A program made the position numbers and the translations under genes. A DNA stretch of 57,682 nucleotides, from the IMG/VR virus record IMGVR_UViG_3300029319_000053, positions 1-57,682 of that record. One strand, written 5' to 3'. This document shows, piece after piece, positions 5,140 through 25,555 of this stretch. Under the pieces are notes generated by a model, which did no database searches, was not told where the DNA came from, and was given only the letters and a program-made list of their open reading frames with translations. The stretch's first letter is position 1, and the number at the start of each line of letters is the position of its first letter. The stretch is from a virus.

Positions 5140-6156
5140 ATGCATTCAATCAATCCAATCAAACTAAAAGACGAACTCAAGGACTGCATCAATGCGGGCT
5201 ACCCAGCAATGATCTGGGGTGGTCCGGGTATTGGTAAGTCTGAGATACCCGAACAGGTTGCACAAGAGCTAGGAGTCCCACTCATTGATTTTCGTGCTAA
5301 CCTGTTCGATCCTGTTGATGTACGTGGCGTGCCCTACATCAAACAGCTAAAAGAAACTGGTAAAAGGTTTACATCTTGGGCTGTACCTGATGTCTTTCCA
5401 ATCGAGCAACGAGATGGCCCACGCGGCATCTTGTTTATCGACGAGTTGCCAACTGCACCGCCAGCAACACAAAACGCATTCTTGCAGTTGTTGCTGACTA
5501 AACAAATCGGTGAGTACAAATTGCCACCAGGATGGCAGATTGTATGTGCGGGCAACAGATTGACTGACGCAGCAGCTGTTTATCAGATGCCAAGTCCAGT
5601 CAGAAACAGGCTTGCACACTACGAACTTGAACCGTCGCTCGATGACTGGGTACAGTGGGCCTATCAAAACAATCTAGATACAGATGTTATCTCGTTCATT
5701 CAATACAGACCTAACTTACTTTCTGCATTCAACGCAGATGAGTATGCATTTCCAACACCACGTGCTTGGTCAATGGTCAGCAAAAAAATGTCGCGAGCCA
5801 ACTCAGATCCTGAACGTCTATTCTTTGGTGTGTCATCTCTAGTTGGCGATGGTCCAGCTGGTGAGTTTGTTGCATTCAAAGAGATTGCATCTAAGCTACC
5901 AGATATTGATCAGTTGATTAAAGACCCATCTACGTACAAAAAAGATGACAATCCAGCTCTATTGTACGCTTTATCTACTGCTGTGGCAGCTAGAGCAGAA
6001 GATAATCTTATGGAGAACATTATGAAGCTAAACAAAAAGATACCTGTTGAGTTTCAAGTTGTCCTAGTTAAAGGTTGTCTTGCCAAAAACAGAGAACTCA
6101 AATCACACAACGATGTGCGTAAGTGGATCGTTGACAATGCTAATGTTGTTTTATAG
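5140..6156 (+). CDS. MoxR-type AAA+ ATPase
   Basis: The 338-residue protein has Walker A GGPGIGKS at 27-34, Walker B ILFIDE at 97-102, a sensor-1 Asn in CAGNR (139) and the segment DVRGVP at 60-65. This order and spacing match MoxR AAA+ ATPases, chaperone-like enzymes that usually work with a VWA-domain partner to assemble or activate protein complexes, often by metal insertion. The expected partner is encoded at 6901-8010. GGAGGTTAT precedes the ATG. Phage-borne MoxR/VWA pairs are known, but their target is not. Its neighbours here are two related unknown proteins and several tiny membrane proteins. Confidence 0.9.
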   Translation: MHSINPIKLKDELKDCINAGYPAMIWGGPGIGKSEIPEQVAQELGVPLIDFRANLFDPVDVRGVPYIKQLKETGKRFTSWAVPDVFPIEQRDGPRGILFIDELPTAPPATQNAFLQLLLTKQIGEYKLPPGWQIVCAGNRLTDAAAVYQMPSPVRNRLAHYELEPSLDDWVQWAYQNNLDTDVISFIQYRPNLLSAFNADEYAFPTPRAWSMVSKKMSRANSDPERLFFGVSSLVGDGPAGEFVAFKEIASKLPDIDQLIKDPSTYKKDDNPALLYALSTAVAARAEDNLMENIMKLNKKIPVEFQVVLVKGCLAKNRELKSHNDVRKWIVDNANVVL

Positions 6157-6815: not shown

Positions 6816-6904
6816 TGGTTGGAGAAATACCTATTCTAACAATATGTATTACAGCTTCATTGCTTTTTTACATAATTCTTATTAACACACAAGGGAGAAA
6901 ATGA
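6815..6904 (+). CDS. Tiny membrane protein, 29 aa
   Basis: The ATG overlaps the previous stop (TAATG) and the stop overlaps the next ATG (ATGA), so it is coupled on both sides. Residues 4-23 form one hydrophobic segment (EIPILTICITASLLFYIIL). Too short to classify. The position directly before the VWA metallopeptidase gene suggests that it belongs to the same module. Confidence 0.5.
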   Translation: MVGEIPILTICITASLLFYIILINTQGRK

Positions 6905-8010
6905 TGAATCAATTGTTTGTAAAAGCTAGATCCCGTCTTGTGCTAGACAACCCATTCTTTGGTACTTTGTGTCTTAGACAAAAACCTACTGAGTGGGAAG
7001 AACCGACTGGCGCGGTGGACGGCAAGCATTTATTTTACAATCCAAAATGGTTTGAAAGTCTTACAGAACTAGAACGTGTGGGTTTTCTAGCGCACGAAGT
7101 TATGCACCTTGTTCTTATGCATCACACACGTAGACAAGAACGTAATCCACACAAATGGAACGTGGCTGCTGATTATGCAATCAACAATCATTTACTTGCA
7201 GAAGGTTTTATTCTGCCAAAAGGCGGACTTGTAGATGATCAGTACATCGGCATGTCTACCGAGCAAATCTACAATCTTCTACCGGAACCTCCTTCGGGCT
7301 GGGACTCAGAATTTTGTGATACCGGTGGATGTGGCGGTGTGCTGGACGCTGCAGGTGCAGACGGTACGCAAGCTACACAAAGCGCTATTGAAGCAGAGCT
7401 ACAAGTTGCAATCAACCAAGCTGCAGAAGCAGCCAAAGCTCAAGGTAAATTGTCCGCAAACATGGAGTCTATTGTTTCTGATATTACAGAACCAAAAGTA
7501 GATTGGAAGAATGTACTAGCAAGGTTTCTACGTGCTAACAACAAGTCCGATTTCACATGGGCTAGACCAAACAGAAGATTTATTGCATCTGGTATGTATT
7601 TGCCATCTCTTCACAATCCATGTCTAGAAGAGATTGCAATCGCTGTAGATACTTCAGGTTCTATATCAGATGATGAATTGACACAGTTCACCACAGAAAC
7701 TTCGTACATACTGCATGAGCTCAATCCTGAACGTGTGCAGTTTGTACAATGTGACGCAGAAGTAAATGATGTCACTGAATATACTCGTGAATCATTGCCT
7801 CTCAAAGTTACATACAAAGGTCGAGGCGGTACTAGTTTTGCGCCAGTCATTGACTACATCAACGAGCATCATCCTAATGTTGCTGCTCTTGTGTACTTGA
7901 CTGATCTTGAAGCTTGCCAAGACGACTTTGGTGACAAACCACATTACCCAGTGCTTTGGGTAACTACACAAGCAGAGGAGGCTCCTTATGGAGAAGTTAT
8001 CAAAATGTAA
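6901..8010 (+). CDS. VWA-like metallopeptidase (DUF2201 type), partner of MoxR
   Basis: The 369-residue protein joins an N-terminal zinc peptidase-like domain with HEVMH at 65-69 to a C-terminal VWA-like domain whose MIDAS motif DTSGS lies near residue 249. This combination is the DUF2201 family, typically encoded with a MoxR ATPase as here. The HExxH residues and the D-x-S-x-S metal site are both intact. In between are a Gly-rich turn and an Ala/Gln-rich helical linker. The module probably remodels or cleaves a host or phage target, but the substrate is unknown. CACAAGGGAGAAA gives the ribosome site; two adjacent ATGs are possible starts. Confidence 0.88.
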   Translation: MMNQLFVKARSRLVLDNPFFGTLCLRQKPTEWEEPTGAVDGKHLFYNPKWFESLTELERVGFLAHEVMHLVLMHHTRRQERNPHKWNVAADYAINNHLLAEGFILPKGGLVDDQYIGMSTEQIYNLLPEPPSGWDSEFCDTGGCGGVLDAAGADGTQATQSAIEAELQVAINQAAEAAKAQGKLSANMESIVSDITEPKVDWKNVLARFLRANNKSDFTWARPNRRFIASGMYLPSLHNPCLEEIAIAVDTSGSISDDELTQFTTETSYILHELNPERVQFVQCDAEVNDVTEYTRESLPLKVTYKGRGGTSFAPVIDYINEHHPNVAALVYLTDLEACQDDFGDKPHYPVLWVTTQAEEAPYGEVIKM

Positions 8011-8167
8011 ACAATACGTTCAAGAGTTTGGCGTGTCTGTGTTGACCGGCACAGCTATATTGTTTTTGTTGTTCGGTCTTGCAACTAGTATTCATTACTC
8101 GTTGATTTTATTTGGTGTCGGGGTTGGCCTTGGCTGTATATTTTATTTACTATGGAGGATTATCTAA
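7988..8167 (+). CDS. Small two-pass membrane protein, 59 aa
   Basis: The ATG lies inside the end of the metallopeptidase gene, after a strong AGAGGAGG site. Two hydrophobic segments (about residues 18-32 and 36-55; AILFLLFGLATS and LILFGVGVGLG) follow a charged N-terminus. It overlaps the next gene by one base. First of three consecutive membrane proteins after the MoxR partner. No family recognised. Confidence 0.6.
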   Translation: MEKLSKCKQYVQEFGVSVLTGTAILFLLFGLATSIHYSLILFGVGVGLGCIFYLLWRII

Positions 8168-8319
8168 TGGGAAGTGTTGTATCGTCAGTTACCACAGCAT
8201 TGTGGATATTGATTGAACTTATTCAATTTGCATACATGGCCTATCTAATGTGGCTAAGGAGGAATGATGTTACTAGTAGGCATACTGTCCGCGCTAGGAC
8301 TGCTTTTGCTGGCGCTTAA
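8167..8319 (+). CDS. Small membrane protein, 50 aa
   Basis: Starts at TAATG, overlapping the previous stop. One hydrophobic segment near residues 9-30 (LWILIELIQFAYMAYLMW) is followed by a basic, Ala-rich tail. Its 3' third overlaps the next gene in another frame, so the tail may simply follow from that overlap. Moderate support. Confidence 0.45.
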   Translation: MGSVVSSVTTALWILIELIQFAYMAYLMWLRRNDVTSRHTVRARTAFAGA

Positions 8320-8599
8320 AGCTGGCGGGCGTAAAACAATTGGTCACGATATTTTTGTTGACGTATTGATTACTGTTACATTGATGGTTTGTTTCTATGG
8401 CACTTTCAGTGGCATGGCTGCTGCTATGGTTGGTGGTCTTTGTGCTTCTATTGTTTTGTTTATTATGAAGAAAACAATGGTGCATGAAAAACTAAAGGTT
8501 ACTAAAGTAAACAAAACTGTTATGACTAAACCTTTTACTGTCAAAGTTCCAACTGTCAAAACTGGTTGGCAAAGAGTAGAACCAACTTGGAGAAGGTAA
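8264..8599 (+). CDS. Membrane protein with basic tail, 111 aa
   Basis: AAGGAGGA precedes two adjacent ATGs. The product has three hydrophobic stretches in its first 70 residues (SALGLLLLALKAGG, VDVLITVTLMVCFYG, MVGGLCASIVLFIM), then a Lys/Val-rich tail with repeats (KVTKVNKTVMTKPFTVKVPT). The tail would lie outside the membrane and could bind a partner or nucleic acid. No family recognised. Confidence 0.6.
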   Translation: MMLLVGILSALGLLLLALKAGGRKTIGHDIFVDVLITVTLMVCFYGTFSGMAAAMVGGLCASIVLFIMKKTMVHEKLKVTKVNKTVMTKPFTVKVPTVKTGWQRVEPTWRR

Positions 8600-8817
8600 T
8601 GAGTATAAATAAAGAAGAACAAGCGCATTACAAACTATATAGTGACTTAGATGAAATAAGTGCAAATGCCTTAGAATGTCTAAGTCCTGTGCATGTTATA
8701 GCATCTGGCATAGATTACTATTTAACCCAAGCATACAAATCCGCTCCTTCGCCAGAGCAAGCGGAAGTGCTTATTGATGCATCTGTAAAAAGAGCAAAGG
8801 AGGAAAACAATGGCTAG
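8599..8817 (+). CDS. Hypothetical protein, 72 aa
   Basis: The chosen start is the ATG in TAATG overlapping the preceding stop, with GAGAAGGTA upstream. A longer frame beginning with TTG inside the preceding gene is less likely. The product is a helical acidic protein (MSINKEEQAHYKLYSDLDE). Its end carries the AGGAGG site of the next gene. No family recognised. Confidence 0.6.
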   Translation: MSINKEEQAHYKLYSDLDEISANALECLSPVHVIASGIDYYLTQAYKSAPSPEQAEVLIDASVKRAKEENNG

Positions 8818-9658
8818 TGTACAAATGTCACAAAGACTACGAGATGATATAGCTGACGCATATGAGAAACAATTACATCTTGCATATAGAAAAGAACACA
8901 ATGTGCAACCTGCTGTAGATTATGTTATGTCTACTATACAAGATGATGAGTTTAATGTTCTTATGGCAACAGCTGAACAGTACGAAAATCTTTCACAAAA
9001 ACTAGATCAAAAATATGGAGACCCAAGCAGACGTGGCTATTACAATAGTACTTTAGGTTTTTCTGTAGAAAGAAATTTAATTAAACAAGTAGATAGCATA
9101 GCTGTTATATGTAATCCAAATAGACCAAAAGAAGATAACATGACTATTCTTTTTGATTGGTCGACTGCTTATCAAGAAACTATTGGTGCAGGCAACAAAC
9201 CGGAAAAATACCCACCTAGTGATAACTGGGTTGAAGGAGATGTGCCTGTGCGTATAGAAAAATTACAGTCTTTTATGGCACCTGTAGTGACACGTCTTGA
9301 ACTTAACAGAGGGTGGGGTCAACAAAAATTTTATGCTCCATATGCTGATTGCGCATACGTTATTACTGAACCTACAATTTGTGAACAACTTATGCCTATT
9401 GGTCAAATAGAAGACCAAGCAGCAAAAGATTTACAAACTTTCAAAGAATATATTGCAAAGATAACTACTCTTAAAAAGTTTCTTGATGAGTGGCCTGGTG
9501 GTAAAGATTTGGTGCCAGAAGAAGACATACAACGTATGACTAAAAAGGTTGTAAGAAAAGCACCTGAAAAAAATACACCAGAAAAAATCATACCAGATGT
9601 TTTGAAAGAGCAGATGAATGAGGTAATATTAACTAATAAACTATTGGGGGACGACTAA
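8810..9658 (+). CDS. Unknown protein, paralogue B of the MoxR module
   Basis: The 282-residue product shares with the 6165-6815 product its N-terminus (VQMSQRLRDDI), the block TTLKKFLDEWPGGKDLVPEE near residues 218-237, and the final LLGDD. Between these blocks it has an extra beta-rich region. T-x-K-x-x-x-E-x-W-P-x-x-x-x-x-x-P segments occur in several phage families, including, as far as I recall, Nmad5; this is only a weak lead. AAAGGAGGAAAACA precedes the ATG. The two relatives bracket the metallopeptidase and membrane genes, which suggests a common job. Confidence 0.75.
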   Translation: MASVQMSQRLRDDIADAYEKQLHLAYRKEHNVQPAVDYVMSTIQDDEFNVLMATAEQYENLSQKLDQKYGDPSRRGYYNSTLGFSVERNLIKQVDSIAVICNPNRPKEDNMTILFDWSTAYQETIGAGNKPEKYPPSDNWVEGDVPVRIEKLQSFMAPVVTRLELNRGWGQQKFYAPYADCAYVITEPTICEQLMPIGQIEDQAAKDLQTFKEYIAKITTLKKFLDEWPGGKDLVPEEDIQRMTKKVVRKAPEKNTPEKIIPDVLKEQMNEVILTNKLLGDD

Positions 9659-9843
9659 TGGAATTAGTAAATGAAACACAATGGCAATACAATTCAGAAT
9701 TTTCATATGAAGCTAATATGGCTAACTGGATTGATGCTGTTCATTTTGAACGTAAAAGATACCAAGAAACTCAATTAACGCATGAACAAGCGGTAATGAA
9801 GTTCAAAGAATTATACCCGAGGAACGAATATGGGCAGACTTAA
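9658..9843 (+). CDS. Hypothetical protein, 61 aa
   Basis: The ATG overlaps the previous stop as TAATG. The product is polar and rich in aromatic residues (MELVNETQWQYNSEFSYEA), with a helical second half. It overlaps the next gene by 14 bases. No family recognised. Confidence 0.55.
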   Translation: MELVNETQWQYNSEFSYEANMANWIDAVHFERKRYQETQLTHEQAVMKFKELYPRNEYGQT

Positions 9844-19368: not shown

Positions 19369-19596
19369 TCATTTTCTTTTAAAAGACCTATTTTTTGATC
19401 TATGTTGCAAAACTACATTACTTCTTGAATTATTAGCAGGATTTCCATCTACATGATGTACATCTATAACACTTCCTTTTCTAACTCTACCCTCTCTTAA
19501 CATTTGCCTGCGTATTTTATTACGAGCTGCTCGTCTTTTCTTTTGTTCTGGAGACGAATGGTAGTTTGCATATTCGCTTTTATAGTTTCTAGTCAT
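19369..19596 (-). CDS. Small HNH endonuclease
   Basis: The 75-residue product is basic and holds DVHHVDGNPANNSRSNVVL, an HNH core with the paired His, Asn-Asn and final Asn-Val positions. The N-terminus (NYKSEYANYH) resembles short phage HNH proteins. It is probably a free-standing HNH nuclease, either mobile or packaging-associated. It is the last gene of the late block, 1 base after the cyclase stop, and could have been inserted there with the cassette. Confidence 0.75.
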   Translation of the reverse strand: MTRNYKSEYANYHSSPEQKKRRAARNKIRRQMLREGRVRKGSVIDVHHVDGNPANNSRSNVVLQHRSKNRSFKRK

Positions 19597-21348
19597 TTAT
19601 ACAGTATACACTTTTAATGGTTTCTCTTTACCTTTTACTTGAATCTTTCCGTGTGGGGAACATTTGTCCACTTTTTCTGCTGTACGTTCTCCAATAAGAA
19701 TATCCACTCCATATTTTTTAGTTGCACTTTCTAATCGTGCAGCTATATTCACAGCATCTCCTATAGCTGAATAATCAAATCTTGTATTACTGCCCATGTT
19801 TCCTACTACAGCTTCACCCGTATTTATACCTATACCTATGGCAATTGGTTCAGGCAATTCTTTCTGCAGCATACGCATTGCCGTGCGCATATCACGAGCA
19901 CAGGCGACAGCACGTTGTTCATGTTTATCAATCATTAGGGGGGAATTGAATATGGCCATACATGCGTCGCCTATGAATTTGTCCACCATCCCACCGTGGG
20001 CCTGGATGCACGTAACTTGTTCAGTTAATACTCTATTCATTATTTCTGTTACTTGTTCAGGTTCTAACTTTTCAGATAAGTTTGTAAATCCCCTAACATC
20101 AGTAAACAAAAACGTGCAAGTTCTACGTTCTCCTCCTAATTTAAGTAAGCTAGGATCTTTTTGTAATCGTGCAACTTGTCTGGGATCCAGATAGTGCTCG
20201 AACTGTTTTTTTATCTGTTGTCTTAATTTATATTGTTCCCCAAACCTTAACCAAAATTCTTGTACGGATGTAAGTGTTATAGCTACTGCGCTATAACTAA
20301 AGTCTATAAGTATATTATTTCGTACAAACCATACTGCAGCTATAGCAATACTTGTATACAGAACAATCATACCAACCATAGTGCCTGCAACGGGTAAACT
20401 ACGTATTATAATTATGCTTAATATTAAACATCCTATCAGTATAAGTAATTCATATAATAGGCTTGCACCCGGTATTTGAGGCACATTTACTGTTAAACTT
20501 TCAGCCATTGCAGCTTGTACTTCATGCGGATACAACAACCCAGCTGGCGTAGCTATTTGAGGCATGACACCTTTTGCAGTCACACCCACAAACACAAACC
20601 TATCTTTTACATCCATCTCTTGAAGCGTAGTTCGTGGAGTATCACTCCATGTTACCCATCGTCTTCCTATTTTATCTACTGGTATTTGTGCATAATTAGG
20701 TAAAGTAAGCTCTACAATCTCACTCTTCTGGCCCTTAATAATGTACGTATCTGACCCAGATATCACCTTCATAACTTCCATACCAAATGCCGGCGTCCAA
20801 CCATCTGGTGTTTGTAACAATAAAGGTAATCTTCTTACTAATTTATCTACATCTGTTCGTGCAACAGCCAAGCCCTGGCTGCTAACATTTGCAAGTTCGT
20901 ACGTATTTTGTATCACACCCTGTGCAGGAATCGCTTGTACGGGAATCCCATCGCCTAATATAACTGTGCCTGTTGTTGGGGGGTAGTTCCCATTATCATT
21001 TTCAAACATTGCAAGAACGCTTGGTGTGCCTGCCAACGCATCAGCAAAAGCTTTATCTCCACCAAATCTATCTGGTTGAGGAAAGGCGACGACCCAACCC
21101 ACGCCCCAAGCACCTGCCTCTATGAGGTCTGAATGAATTTCAGCAAGTTCTTGACGAGGGAACGGCCAGCCGCCCATCATGGAAACATCTTCTTCTGTTA
21201 TATCTAGTAATACAAAAGTGCCAGAAGGTTCAGGTATCTGCACAAGAGCATCAAATGTTTTTAACTTAAGGACTTCGAGAGCTTGCCAATTAAATAATAA
21301 TGGCATACATAGTATTGGTATGCTAAGTAACGAAATCCATTTCTTCAT
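19597..21348 (-). CDS. Membrane CHASE2-adenylate cyclase
   Basis: The 583-residue protein begins with an anchor (residues 5-20), followed by an extracytoplasmic CHASE2 sensor (FDALVQIP, WPFPR at 61-65, FPQPDRFGGD at 89-98). Three membrane segments span about 298-365. A class III nucleotidyl cyclase domain follows from about 405. The metal-binding Asp residues (D417 in FTDVRGFT, D461 in GDACMAIF), the adenine-selecting Lys457 and Asp525, and the transition-state Asn534 and Arg538 are all present, so an active adenylate cyclase is expected. ATGA couples it to the FecR gene. Membrane sensing linked to cAMP synthesis is rare in phages; recent transfer from a bacterium is likely, as FecR/CHASE2-cyclase pairs are common there. 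Confidence 0.92.
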   Translation of the reverse strand: MKKWISLLSIPILCMPLLFNWQALEVLKLKTFDALVQIPEPSGTFVLLDITEEDVSMMGGWPFPRQELAEIHSDLIEAGAWGVGWVVAFPQPDRFGGDKAFADALAGTPSVLAMFENDNGNYPPTTGTVILGDGIPVQAIPAQGVIQNTYELANVSSQGLAVARTDVDKLVRRLPLLLQTPDGWTPAFGMEVMKVISGSDTYIIKGQKSEIVELTLPNYAQIPVDKIGRRWVTWSDTPRTTLQEMDVKDRFVFVGVTAKGVMPQIATPAGLLYPHEVQAAMAESLTVNVPQIPGASLLYELLILIGCLILSIIIIRSLPVAGTMVGMIVLYTSIAIAAVWFVRNNILIDFSYSAVAITLTSVQEFWLRFGEQYKLRQQIKKQFEHYLDPRQVARLQKDPSLLKLGGERRTCTFLFTDVRGFTNLSEKLEPEQVTEIMNRVLTEQVTCIQAHGGMVDKFIGDACMAIFNSPLMIDKHEQRAVACARDMRTAMRMLQKELPEPIAIGIGINTGEAVVGNMGSNTRFDYSAIGDAVNIAARLESATKKYGVDILIGERTAEKVDKCSPHGKIQVKGKEKPLKVYTV

Positions 21349-22433
21349 CCTGACCCCTGTGTGATTGTAATAGTAGAATTACCTCCACCATTAACTACAA
21401 TCTGTTGGTATTTACCATCCTGTATTAAGATAATAGTGTAACCTTGAGCACTGTTTACCGTCAACTGTGCATTTTGATTGACCTTTCTTTGGAATGCAAT
21501 TTGTTCGCCTTGCAATAAAGTAATTATTTGAGTTTCTAAATCTTGTCCTATTTCTGTGCCTTGTATTGAAGTACCTACAGTCAATTTTTTAGTATCTAAC
21601 TCATCTATTTCTTCTATAATTTCTAATAAATCTTCAAAAAAGTTTATATCTAAAAAGTTTATATCTAGCTCTGTAAACTCTAATGTATCCTCAGCTAAAT
21701 AATCTTGCTCTAGCTCATTAAACTCTAAATAGTCTATATCTAATATAGCTCCGCTATCTGCTACGGACGTTGTGGATGACTCTGTGGATAAGTCTTGTTC
21801 GTCCGGAGGCGTAACAATAAGCATGTTATCTATTACATCTAAAGTAAGATCAAGTATTACAGGTTTGCTTGGGGTTGTTTCCCATACTTCTACAGTTGTA
21901 GCTTGGTAGGGTTTGTTAAGAGTAACGCTACCTGTAGCAGTAGTAACAAGTATCTCACCACTAGAAATACCGTTAGCGTCAGGTAATAAAATAATGAGAG
22001 AACGCCCCAGTTCATCAACCGTGCATGTAAAATCTGTACCTCTGATAGCAATATCAGCGGTAGGTGTGGATAGTCTAATATTCTTTTTATCAATTTTGCC
22101 TAACCTACTGCTTATAAATCTAGCCGTGCCACTTGCAAATTGCAGAGCCATTTTACCTTTTGAAGGATCCGGGTCAAATATATATTCAGTAATAACTAAT
22201 TTAGAGTTTTCAGTTAAACGTACAATAGAGTTGTCCAGGAAAGTAATTCCTACACGGCCCGCATTAGTGCGGACATCGTCCATTTGTTGAATGCCAAAGT
22301 CTAACTCAGCCCCGTAAGACTTGTCTCGTATTACTTCAGCAGAGCCATTTAGCTCAGATATATCTCCAATATTAGCAGCTTGTGCTTGTACCGCCGTCGT
22401 TTTGAATAACGCACACAGTACCATTATTGCCAT
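21345..22433 (-). CDS. Secreted FecR-domain protein
   Basis: The chosen start (Met at 22433) gives a Sec signal peptide MAIMVLCALFKTTAVQAQA. A FecR domain follows, with NIGDISELNGSAEV and the family hallmark STPTADIAIRGTDF near 122-135. Then comes an unusual acidic, Leu/Phe-rich stretch (about 226-286, e.g. LEFTELDINFLDINFFEDLL) and an end reading GGGNSTITITQGSG, which resembles a curlin repeat. Starts up to 22550 keep the frame open, but overlap the curlin gene by 180 bases. FecR domains act in the periplasm in signal relay. Bacterial genes of this kind often sit beside CHASE2-cyclases, as here. Confidence 0.82.
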   Translation of the reverse strand: MAIMVLCALFKTTAVQAQAANIGDISELNGSAEVIRDKSYGAELDFGIQQMDDVRTNAGRVGITFLDNSIVRLTENSKLVITEYIFDPDPSKGKMALQFASGTARFISSRLGKIDKKNIRLSTPTADIAIRGTDFTCTVDELGRSLIILLPDANGISSGEILVTTATGSVTLNKPYQATTVEVWETTPSKPVILDLTLDVIDNMLIVTPPDEQDLSTESSTTSVADSGAILDIDYLEFNELEQDYLAEDTLEFTELDINFLDINFFEDLLEIIEEIDELDTKKLTVGTSIQGTEIGQDLETQIITLLQGEQIAFQRKVNQNAQLTVNSAQGYTIILIQDGKYQQIVVNGGGNSTITITQGSG

Positions 22434-23070
22434 TAGATATAATTTTAAGCCAGTCCCTAGCCAATGTAGATGATTGCGTAATGTTAAAAGTCCTGCTGTT
22501 GCCTGTTTGGTCAAGATAGAAATATCCATTTTGATATCCACTTCCGTCAAATGTTATTGAGTTAGAGTCCCCATCCACGTCTACATAAGATGTGCCTAGG
22601 TCATAATCAATGTCAAAATCAAACTCGTTGCTATCTCCATTAATTATCCAGTCTAAGTCAAGTGTCGAAGCTAAAGCATTAGTACCAACATTTAAATCAA
22701 AGTCGTTACTAGAACCAGTTACGTCTACATTGTAGTTACCTGAATCTGCGCCATATGTATTGGTTGGGTCTACTTGTATATCGAATACGTTGCTATCTCC
22801 ATCAAACTCAAAAAAGCCTGTAATGCTATCTCCTAAGATATCACCTAAGAATTTGTTTGAGCTACCTATCTGATTTATATCTAAAGTAAGATTTAAACCA
22901 TCAAGATCGAGCGCGGTCATAGTACCACTAACAGCATTTAATCCACCGATGATGTTAGATGAACCTAATTGTTCTATATCTATGTTTGCGTTATTCCCGG
23001 ACTGGTCAACATATACTTCATTGTCAGCATACAAAAAACCAACTAATAGTAAGGGTAAAAGTTTTTTCAT
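22372..23070 (-). CDS. Secreted curlin-like repeat protein (CsgA/B-like)
   Basis: A short Sec signal peptide (MKKLLPLLLVGFLYA) is followed by eight or nine imperfect repeats of about 20-25 residues, each with a (Q/D)-x-x-G-x-S-N core: IEQLGSSN, INQIGSSN, FDGDSN, VTGSSN, INGDSN, VDGDSN, LDQTGNS. Curlin repeats have Q-x-G-x-x-N at the same spacing. The first two and the last match well. The middle ones have Asp in place of Gln, making the protein acidic. With csgG and csgF directly upstream, it is the obvious candidate substrate for export and surface fibre formation. It ends with two cysteines (TVCVIQ, SC). GGAGTTATAA precedes the ATG. Confidence 0.8.
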   Translation of the reverse strand: MKKLLPLLLVGFLYADNEVYVDQSGNNANIDIEQLGSSNIIGGLNAVSGTMTALDLDGLNLTLDINQIGSSNKFLGDILGDSITGFFEFDGDSNVFDIQVDPTNTYGADSGNYNVDVTGSSNDFDLNVGTNALASTLDLDWIINGDSNEFDFDIDYDLGTSYVDVDGDSNSITFDGSGYQNGYFYLDQTGNSRTFNITQSSTLARDWLKIISNGNNGTVCVIQNDGGTSTSC

Positions 23071-23882
23071 TTATAACTCCAATATCCAGCTTGTTCACCC
23101 TCCTTGATAATTTCTAATACGGCTGTTTCTATGGCAGAACGCAAAGCAAGTCCTCCAGACTCATTTCGCACCACACCACTTTCTATCTCTACTAATTCAG
23201 TACCAGCTTCAATAAAACGAAACACGTCGTCTGTTAATGATACACTAAGAATGGTCTTAGATACTAGTTTTTCAAGTAACACCTGACCTGAGTTTACAGA
23301 CACAAGACGCAATTGTATGGTTATTGAGTCTGTTCTATAAGCCTTAGATATACCAATCCCTAAATATCTAGCACCTGCCCCACCAGATGTTACATTAGAT
23401 TCATATGAAACTACTGACCCTTCTAATAATAAACCTGCAAACAACAAAGTACCTATCTTTGTATTGTCTTTATTCTCAGTTCTACCACTACGGATTATCT
23501 GGCGTTCTTTAGTTAAGTTATCTAACCCACCTCTTTCTACTACGGTAAAAAAACCCCCATTTTGTTTACATGCGTCTTTAAGAGCTTTGATAAGATAGGC
23601 GCTAGGTTGTTGAGTTATAGCGGTAGAGAAGCTAGCATACATAGAATTACTAAGTCTTTGACCTGTTTGGTCTGTAAATGCGCTTCCGTACACAGCTACA
23701 GTTGGTTTTCTTTCAGGCGTACGGCATTCTTGCAAGTCTGTTATAACTAGCTCTTCTATTTGTGCTGATTCGATTTTCCGTATCGGGGCTATGTTATTTT
23801 CTATAGGGTCTTCTATTAATAACGAAGCGCAACTAGAAAGTAAAAGAACCGATAGGTACCGTAATTTCTGTAGTATTGCCAT
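23067..23882 (-). CDS. csgG: CsgG, curli secretion channel lipoprotein
   Basis: The 271-residue product (E. coli CsgG has 277) has lipobox LSSC with Cys18. It aligns well with CsgG through VVERGGLDNLTKERQIIRS, GGAGARYLGIG, TKTILS-like SKTILSVSL and FRFIEAGTELVE, up to the C-terminal YWSYK. In E. coli CsgG forms a nonameric outer-membrane pore. Its constriction residues Tyr51, Asn55 and Phe56 align here with Ser, Ser and Phe (SNSMYASFSTA), so the ring may be wider or differ in selectivity. ATGA links it to the curlin gene. The upstream csgF gene overlaps its start by 50 bases. Confidence 0.95.
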   Translation of the reverse strand: MAILQKLRYLSVLLLSSCASLLIEDPIENNIAPIRKIESAQIEELVITDLQECRTPERKPTVAVYGSAFTDQTGQRLSNSMYASFSTAITQQPSAYLIKALKDACKQNGGFFTVVERGGLDNLTKERQIIRSGRTENKDNTKIGTLLFAGLLLEGSVVSYESNVTSGGAGARYLGIGISKAYRTDSITIQLRLVSVNSGQVLLEKLVSKTILSVSLTDDVFRFIEAGTELVEIESGVVRNESGGLALRSAIETAVLEIIKEGEQAGYWSYK

Positions 23883-24351
23883 CTGGGTCTGTTATCTTTA
23901 AGGTTATCATTGTACCATCTTCACTTACACTATACTCAATAGTATTACCCATCAATTCAATGATACCTTGTGTTTGAGGAGTGTCTCCAAACAAAGCATC
24001 TACTAGTTGTCTCGATAACTGTGCATATATTCTAGACTCTAAGTTACGTATAAATCTTGCAAGCGTAGTGTTTTCTGCATCTCTTTTAAGCTGTTCTTTA
24101 TAAGCTTTTAGTTCTGCTTTAATATTTTCTTTACGATTAAACTCTTGGTTCTCAATAGTAAGATAATGTGAACTAGTGCCTACTCCACTAAAACTAGGGT
24201 TTTTAAAGCCATGCACTATTTGATCTGCTTTTAAATTTAAACCTATTATTCCTAAAAATAAAATAAGGCCTATTACTAATACAACTTTATACAGAACTAT
24301 TTTTTCTGCATATTCTTTTTCTAATTGTTTTTTAGTCTTTTCTTTGGTCAT
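23833..24351 (-). CDS. csgF: CsgF, curli assembly factor
   Basis: The start chosen is ATG at 24351, after GGCGGATAGAG; a TTG start at 24369 is possible. After a charged N-terminus (MTKEKTKKQLEKEYAEK) comes a hydrophobic segment ending LNLKA, then QIVHGFKNPSFSG, the match to CsgF FxFRNPNFGG. The second half carries LESRIYAQLSRQLVDALFG and the closing strand pair VSEDGTMITLKITDPDGNTT, as in CsgF. In E. coli CsgF docks into the CsgG pore and helps nucleate fibres. The N-terminal extension (172 aa here versus 138) is unusual and may keep it membrane-anchored. It is the first gene of the curli cassette, overlapping the holin-like gene by 20 bases. Confidence 0.85.
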   Translation of the reverse strand: MTKEKTKKQLEKEYAEKIVLYKVVLVIGLILFLGIIGLNLKADQIVHGFKNPSFSGVGTSSHYLTIENQEFNRKENIKAELKAYKEQLKRDAENTTLARFIRNLESRIYAQLSRQLVDALFGDTPQTQGIIELMGNTIEYSVSEDGTMITLKITDPDGNTTEITVPIGSFTF

Positions 24352-24682
24352 CTCTATCCGCCTTGGCAATTTTATTGCTATCTATAAGTTGAGGCACGCC
24401 AAGAATAGTTTTAATCAAAGTGTCTTGTCTTATAATTTCATTGTCTAAACTACGCACCCTGTCTATTAATGCTACTAAAATACCATGCTGTGAGTCAAGT
24501 TTAGTGCCAAGCCTTTGTTCTACGGCGCTTATTTGTTCTGCTACTTTATCATCGACAGTGTCTAATTTTGTTTCCATACCGTCAACAATACGCATTATTA
24601 ATTTATAAATAAACCACCCTAAACCTAGAGCAGCTGCAATAGGAAAACCTACTTCTTGGATTACAGTGACTGCTGATTCCAT
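24332..24682 (-). CDS. Holin-like membrane protein with coiled coil
   Basis: The start overlaps the previous stop (TGATG). One N-terminal membrane segment (about residues 8-30, VGFPIAAALGLGWFIYKLIM) is followed by a coiled coil of about 70 residues (DDKVAEQISAVEQRLGTKLD). This build matches phage holins of the BhlA/UviB kind or antiholin-like proteins. It lies between the 3-TM holin candidate and the curli genes, so it is probably part of the lysis group. Confidence 0.7.
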   Translation of the reverse strand: MESAVTVIQEVGFPIAAALGLGWFIYKLIMRIVDGMETKLDTVDDKVAEQISAVEQRLGTKLDSQHGILVALIDRVRSLDNEIIRQDTLIKTILGVPQLIDSNKIAKADRDDQRKD

Positions 24683-25152
24683 CAGTCTTGTTTATTGGAG
24701 GCCCCAAAATAAAATGATATTACTGCAGAAGCTAAGCCACCAAGATAGCCTAAGACCAAATTAATTAGAGCCTCACTGTTTTGTTCTGGTGGTTGAAGAG
24801 TTACGAGAAAAATATAACCAAGAAAACCACCAACCATGGCTATACCTATAATTCTAGCTGTCCAATCTTTACTAAATGTGTTTCGTGCGTGTTGTTTTTC
24901 TTGAGCTTCTAAATCGTATAGATCTATGTCTAACTGTTTCATTTTAGTTTCAAACTCTTTTTCTGCTTTTTTGATTTCAATTAGCTGTTCAGGAGTAGCA
25001 TTTTGTATAGCTTTCTCTAAAGAAGCAGGATCATTTTCTACACCTAATACTTTTGATATGACATCTCCTGCCATACCACCTAACGGTCCGCCTAGCGCAG
25101 TCCCTAATGTTGGAGCGACGCTCCCTATTATATTACCCAGTAACTTCTTCAT
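24682..25152 (-). CDS. Holin of the 3-TM (GTA_holin_3TM) type
   Basis: ATG at 25152 or TTG at 25161 is possible; the latter lies 13 bases after GGAGGAGC. Amphipathic Gly-rich N-terminus (GTALGGPLGGMAGDVISKVLG), a charged coiled coil, then two hydrophobic segments at about residues 106-126 and 133-155 (IIGIAMVGGFLGYIFLV, LGYLGGLASAVISFYFG). This is the layout of the GTA/phage 3-TM holin family. It would permeabilise the inner membrane at the end of infection, letting the lysozyme (30029-30484) reach the wall. It overlaps the upstream nuclease gene by about 20 bases. Confidence 0.75.
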   Translation of the reverse strand: MKKLLGNIIGSVAPTLGTALGGPLGGMAGDVISKVLGVENDPASLEKAIQNATPEQLIEIKKAEKEFETKMKQLDIDLYDLEAQEKQHARNTFSKDWTARIIGIAMVGGFLGYIFLVTLQPPEQNSEALINLVLGYLGGLASAVISFYFGASNKQD

Positions 25153-25555
25153 ATTTTCCAAGCTTTAACAGCTCCTCCTTGTTTATTAAATGTTGTGCTT
25201 CTATATCATCTTTGCTTTGCCCTGTGTAGGCAACAGCAAGGTAGTTATCAATAAGCGCTTGGTTTAGATCTACGTCATCTGCAACGATAACCCCTAGAAC
25301 TCTACCGAACTTCCCTTTCTTGTCTAGTTTTGTTTGTATTTTTAAATCATCAGCGTGCAGGATAGCATCTGATAAAAACTTACCAGCTAGTTTACCTCTA
25401 GCTTTTTCGTCTAAATCTCTTGTTCGTGATTCTGGCGTGTCGATTCCGTATAACCTGACACGAGACTTATATGATATATCAAAACCTAAATCTATTATAG
25501 CGTCGACAGTGTCTCCATCTACCACCCGGGTTATTTCGCACCTATACTCGTACAT
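25133..25555 (-). CDS. Staphylococcal nuclease-like (SNase/thermonuclease) protein
   Basis: The 140-residue product has the SNase pattern: VVDGDTVDAII, YKSRVRLYGIDTPESR and KFGRVLGVIV. It has the metal-binding Asp residues, catalytic Arg (RVRLYG), Glu (TPES) and second Arg (GRVLG). It cuts DNA or RNA and needs calcium. There is no signal peptide, so it acts in the cytoplasm, perhaps degrading host DNA, or is released at lysis. TAATG couples it to the upstream small basic gene. Confidence 0.88.
   Translation of the reverse strand: MYEYRCEITRVVDGDTVDAIIDLGFDISYKSRVRLYGIDTPESRTRDLDEKARGKLAGKFLSDAILHADDLKIQTKLDKKGKFGRVLGVIVADDVDLNQALIDNYLAVAYTGQSKDDIEAQHLINKEELLKLGKYEEVTG

Follow-up and report, generated by a model that had tools for sequence, protein, structure and literature searches.

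A phage gene at 19597–21348 (-), read from an ATG start, encodes a 583-aa CHASE2 class III (IIIb-type) adenylate cyclase; it lies in the window, which is the whole of the 57,682-base IMG/VR virus record IMGVR_UViG_3300029319_000053. With a probability of about 0.68, the enzyme is the signalling end of a phage curli (type VIII secretion) cluster, with FecR reporting to it. In the proposed mechanism, a catalytically competent class IIIb homodimeric cyclase in the cytoplasm would be coupled to a periplasmic CHASE2 domain through three helices and a linker. Expression would come late in infection, as is probable from the place of the cyclase, which follows the structural and lysis genes at their 3′ end. 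At that stage the phage would produce the curli pore together with a secreted curlin-like protein, a FecR protein for the periplasm and the cyclase with its CHASE2 domain. The FecR protein, secreted and encoded just upstream, would be the likeliest periplasmic partner of CHASE2, presumably by contact, and would inform the sensor about the condition of the envelope, or about the transit of curlin through CsgG; on this signal the cyclase would make cAMP. If this is true, a secretion-linked second messenger is the means by which a virus equips very simple cells with a circuit that senses the envelope.

Architecture and active site of the cyclase

An earlier note had described an intact membrane class III cyclase in a phage, and the domains, the catalytic residues, the selection on the gene and the surrounding phage genes all support that description. 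Pfam models match CHASE2 at residues 15–312 (E 6e-31) and Guanylate_cyc at residues 410–581 (E 5.7e-22). The protein can be divided into TM1 (~2–18), CHASE2 (~25–290), TM2–4 (~296–372), a linker (373–405) and the catalytic domain (406–583). The complete CHASE2 sensor described in the note is thus present, but its count of three membrane segments becomes four helices, one at ~2–18 and three after CHASE2 at 296–317, 320–343 and 351–~372. By the Pfam matches and the helices of the model, this is the layout of a CHASE2 receptor cyclase, with an N-terminal membrane segment, CHASE2, three membrane segments and an output domain. The linker is the least variable stretch of the protein in an alignment of viral relatives, as expected if a signal runs from sensor to catalyst.

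In an AlphaFold model built from 39 sequences (pLDDT 88.6), residues 404–583 superpose on CyaC with a Z score of 26.3 and an rmsd of 1.4 Å over 178 residues, a comparison that concerns the catalytic part, the CHASE2 assignment resting on Pfam. The guanylyl cyclase Cya2 is also a close structural neighbour of the modelled catalytic domain. Against close relatives, dN/dS is 0.04–0.10 in the cyclase part and 0.11–0.19 in CHASE2, and the open reading frame is therefore not a chance one; the gene is under strong purifying selection.

Conservation of the active site was assessed in 81 aligned sequences, 80 of which cover the catalytic residues. D417, K457, D461, D525, N534 and R538 are all found at the positions first given for them. 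The metal-binding D417 and D461, the transition-state N534 and R538, and K457 are each unchanged in 80/80 viral relatives, which upholds the note on the metal and Asn/Arg residues and on the lysine of its proposed adenine-selecting pair, Lys457/Asp525. The aspartate of that pair, though conserved, is ruled out as an adenine selector by alignment with the characterised enzymes, in which D525 corresponds to the Asp preceding Y/F in CyaC (SDFTAIG, 1wc1) and CyaB (MDYTIIG, 3r5g); the other catalytic residues match, and the adenine contact moves to S527. Of the 80 viral relatives, 49 have Ser and 31 have Thr at this position, which is Thr in class IIIb enzymes and Asp in class IIIa. Judged by K457 together with S527, the active site is of class IIIb and not IIIa.

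The catalytic residues are all retained in relatives down to ~55% identity. The adenine-type lysine favours cAMP as the product, and the gene apparently encodes a working, membrane-bound, cAMP-making enzyme in a marine phage. The likeness to CyaC of Spirulina and CyaB of P. aeruginosa comprises the fold, the metal aspartates, the adenine lysine, the Asn/Arg pair and a Ser/Thr at the second adenine position, whereas the sensor domains of those two enzymes differ from that of the phage cyclase. CyaD1, CyaD2 and CyaK of S. meliloti, and cyclases of many other Alphaproteobacteria, have both the architecture and the catalytic domain of the phage enzyme. Among phage cyclases, that of HTVC008M retains the full catalytic set. 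The Melnitz cyclase (7998–9821 of its locus) is non-canonical, with Ser at the 534 position and Asp at 527, and its activity may differ.

The curli cluster and the FecR neighbour

The genes preceding the cyclase on the same strand form a curli cluster in the fixed order CsgF-CsgG-curlin-FecR-cyclase, with the cyclase last. CsgF, the curli assembly factor, is encoded at 23833–24369 (-) (PF10614, E 4.4e-15), and CsgG, the lipoprotein that forms the outer-membrane curli pore, at 23067–23882 (-) (PF03783, E 1.2e-49; the NCBIfam CsgG model gives 1.2e-43, below its own cut-off). The gene at 22372–23070 (-) encodes a curlin-like secreted repeat protein, a candidate CsgA/B fibre subunit with six GxxN motifs and a predicted all-beta structure. 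Its match to the curlin repeat (E 0.0067) falls below the Pfam cut-off, but the GxxN repeats are regular and conserved; an AF2 model (pLDDT 83) has strands throughout, and a comparison of this model with the PDB gave nothing significant (best E 0.089). The FecR-domain protein at 21345–22550 (-) (E 2.4e-12; PHROG 37870) carries an N-terminal signal sequence and is predicted to be periplasmic. Its stop overlaps the start of the cyclase by 4 nt (ATGA), and its true start may lie inside the called ORF. The C-terminal end of this protein (21348–21500 (-)) contains a conserved YTxIxIQDG...NGG...ITIxQ with a visual likeness to a curlin repeat; hhalign gives this a probability of 3% and Pfam no match, and the tail is ruled out as a curlin repeat.

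The genes at the edges of the cluster are less uniform. A 116-aa protein with one membrane segment and a coiled coil (24332–24682 (-)) is conserved directly upstream of csgF. The gene at 24682–25161 (-) encodes a three-TM holin-like protein (GTA_holin_3TM, E 0.0061, below cut-off); its position varies among relatives, and it belongs to the late region but not clearly to the module. Directly after the cyclase, a small HNH protein (19369–19596 (-)) is conserved in the closest relatives only. A promoter scan of the module found sites no more often than in shuffled sequence.

Linkage within the cluster was followed through 376 viral CsgG relatives, from which the 80 best matches, and so near relatives, were kept. 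Of the kept loci, 45 extend for 5 kb or more downstream of csgG, and in every one curlin, FecR and cyclase follow in the same order. Some relatives have ~0.4–1.4 kb of extra sequence between FecR and the cyclase, which in HTVC008M and Melnitz holds a second curlin, and in one relative the cyclase is on the strand opposite to the remaining cluster genes.

A CsgF-CsgG-curlin-FecR cluster that includes an adenylate cyclase has been described in myo- and podovirus pelagiphages (PMC9599517), and phage CsgF and CsgG have also been described elsewhere (PMC7029224, PMC9004378). CsgG, CsgF and the downstream FecR and adenylate cyclase, which are features of the phage T8SS (curli) module, are all found here, and the genes and their order are those of the pelagiphage module (PMC9599517; HTVC008M, Melnitz). 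That module often has a second curlin before the CHASE2 cyclase, whereas none intervenes between FecR and cyclase in the window, and the cyclase is 34% identical to that of HTVC008M and 30% to that of Melnitz. In the published clusters a histidine kinase always precedes CsgF (PMC9599517). Here the 116-aa membrane/coiled-coil protein occupies that slot, with no Pfam kinase match, and it may be the published 'histidine kinase' gene under another label.

The pairing of FecR with such cyclases extends to bacteria. Related cyclases occur in 170 of 289 alphaproteobacterial genomes, and at the loci of the 40 best-scoring of these, which are not a random sample, a FecR gene lies within ~8 kb in 16 cases, nine of them within 600 bp. 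About 0.3 would be expected from a background density of 125 FecR genes in 268 Mb, where the loci were searched with a phage-derived HMM and the background with the Pfam model, many of the same places being found by both. None of the 40 loci contains csgG, csgF or curlin. Because FecR neighbours are frequent at bacterial loci that have no curli genes, FecR and the CHASE2 cyclase look like an imported, pre-existing sensor pair that was later joined to the curli genes.

In S. meliloti, the outer-membrane receptor NsrA acts upstream of the CHASE2 cyclases CyaK, CyaD1 and CyaD2, and CyaD1 that has lost its CHASE2 domain makes cAMP constitutively, indicating that the sensor restrains catalysis (PMC7529298, PMC5498481). 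In Burkholderia, a biofilm operon places a FecR gene next to one for a CHASE2 histidine kinase (PMC5192318). SMc02177, a FecR protein of S. meliloti, is dispensable for signal perception (PMC5498481), and therefore proximity of FecR need not mean binding to CHASE2. The earlier proposal that the phage could raise host cAMP in response to an envelope signal keeps its footing in a cyclase with a periplasmic CHASE2 domain and an adenine-type lysine; its picture of a lone regulator gives way to that of a cyclase that is part of a curli cluster.

Possible readers of cAMP and alternative roles

The cluster would have a cAMP output with no known reader in the phages or in most SAR11-order genomes. The cNMP-binding domain (PF00027) is absent from the window and from all 15 further phage records that hold the cyclase or the cluster, HTVC008M and Melnitz included. 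S. meliloti, in contrast to the phage, possesses a CRP-type reader, Clr. The SAR11 order contains the Pelagibacter host of HTVC008M, the sole known Pelagibacter host of such a phage; a SAR11 genome was chosen by a 16S probe, and four SAR11 probes match it exactly. Across 58 possibly incomplete genomes of its order, neither a class III cyclase nor CsgG is found, and cNMP_binding occurs in four, always in 870-codon frames; the one such protein that was read is an 870-aa multi-domain protein with an acyltransferase-like part and not a CRP. These searches concern the recognised domain; proteins of other folds can also bind cAMP, and the phage host is not known to be SAR11. Because the phages and most SAR11-order genomes have no recognised cAMP-binding domain, it is conceivable, if doubtful, that the cluster brings a cAMP circuit to hosts without one, with the nucleotide read by a reader of a new kind or acting extracellularly. 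With its fixed linkage, strong selection and missing receptor, the cyclase, a listed gene of a published cluster, poses a question that experiment can address: what is the reader of its cAMP?

The earlier note had tied raised cAMP to carbon use, surface structures and virulence, which it governs in many bacteria. In a scheme of host reprogramming the nucleotide would switch host CRP-type regulons for carbon use and the cell surface, and the curli genes would be separate cargo. The apparently intact cyclase would suit it, as would the prevalence of CRP-type readers in bacteria generally, seen in the control genomes. It is nonetheless unlikely, since the cyclase is tied to the curli cluster at every testable locus and the 16 phage records and the SAR11-order genomes offer so little to read the signal; control of carbon use or the surface is possible but unsupported, nothing points to a pathogen, and the suggestion of a role in virulence lacks any basis. 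A different product, either cGMP or a Pycsar-like pyrimidine nucleotide, or a disturbance of cyclic-nucleotide defence in the host, is less probable again. PADLOC models of Pycsar cyclases find the catalytic domain, the best of them with E 3e-29, and Cya2, so close in structure, makes cGMP; the model matches, however, reflect the common class III fold, natural Cya2 has Glu where K457 is invariant in the viral relatives, and with no PF00027 effector in the phage, the similarity to Pycsar is confined to the cyclase itself.

A cyclase that is only a passenger of the curli genes, of little use to the phage, would fit the want of a known cAMP reader in the phage and in SAR11-type hosts, but it is very improbable in view of the low dN/dS of the catalytic part, the retention of the catalytic residues across relatives down to ~55% identity and the presence of the cyclase at every one of the 45 loci. 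A cyclase that signals from the FecR end of the curli cluster remains the favoured reading.

Phage lineage and neighbouring genes

The window encodes a terminase, portal, major head protein, tail fibres, lysozyme, DNA polymerase and primase. With phage genes on both sides of the cyclase, and relatives of it encoded in at least 598 viral stretches, an isolated gene or host contamination is ruled out. Relatives are also placed in bacterial MAGs: a 77% identical one is on a Neomarinimicrobiota contig that is probably misbinned phage, and a 33% identical one is on a Rickettsiales MED657 contig that may likewise be misbinned phage sequence.

In gene content the window is nearest to Aeromonas phage phiA008, with 19 matching ORFs, and it matches eight ORFs of Pseudomonas phage KPP25. 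Only three ORFs are shared with HTVC023P in the 50 of its 61 kb that were compared, against the 19 shared with phiA008, which sets the phage outside the HTVC023P type of pelagiphage. As judged from these matches, its lineage appears distinct from HTVC023P and nearer phiA008/KPP25, and the phage appears to add a member to the published kind of curli cluster in that separate lineage. The replication half of the phage also encodes an AAA ATPase (PHROG 1297) at 5140–6156 (+) and a DUF2201 metallopeptidase/VWA-like protein at 6901–8010 (+), which together make up a MoxR/VWA-like pair.
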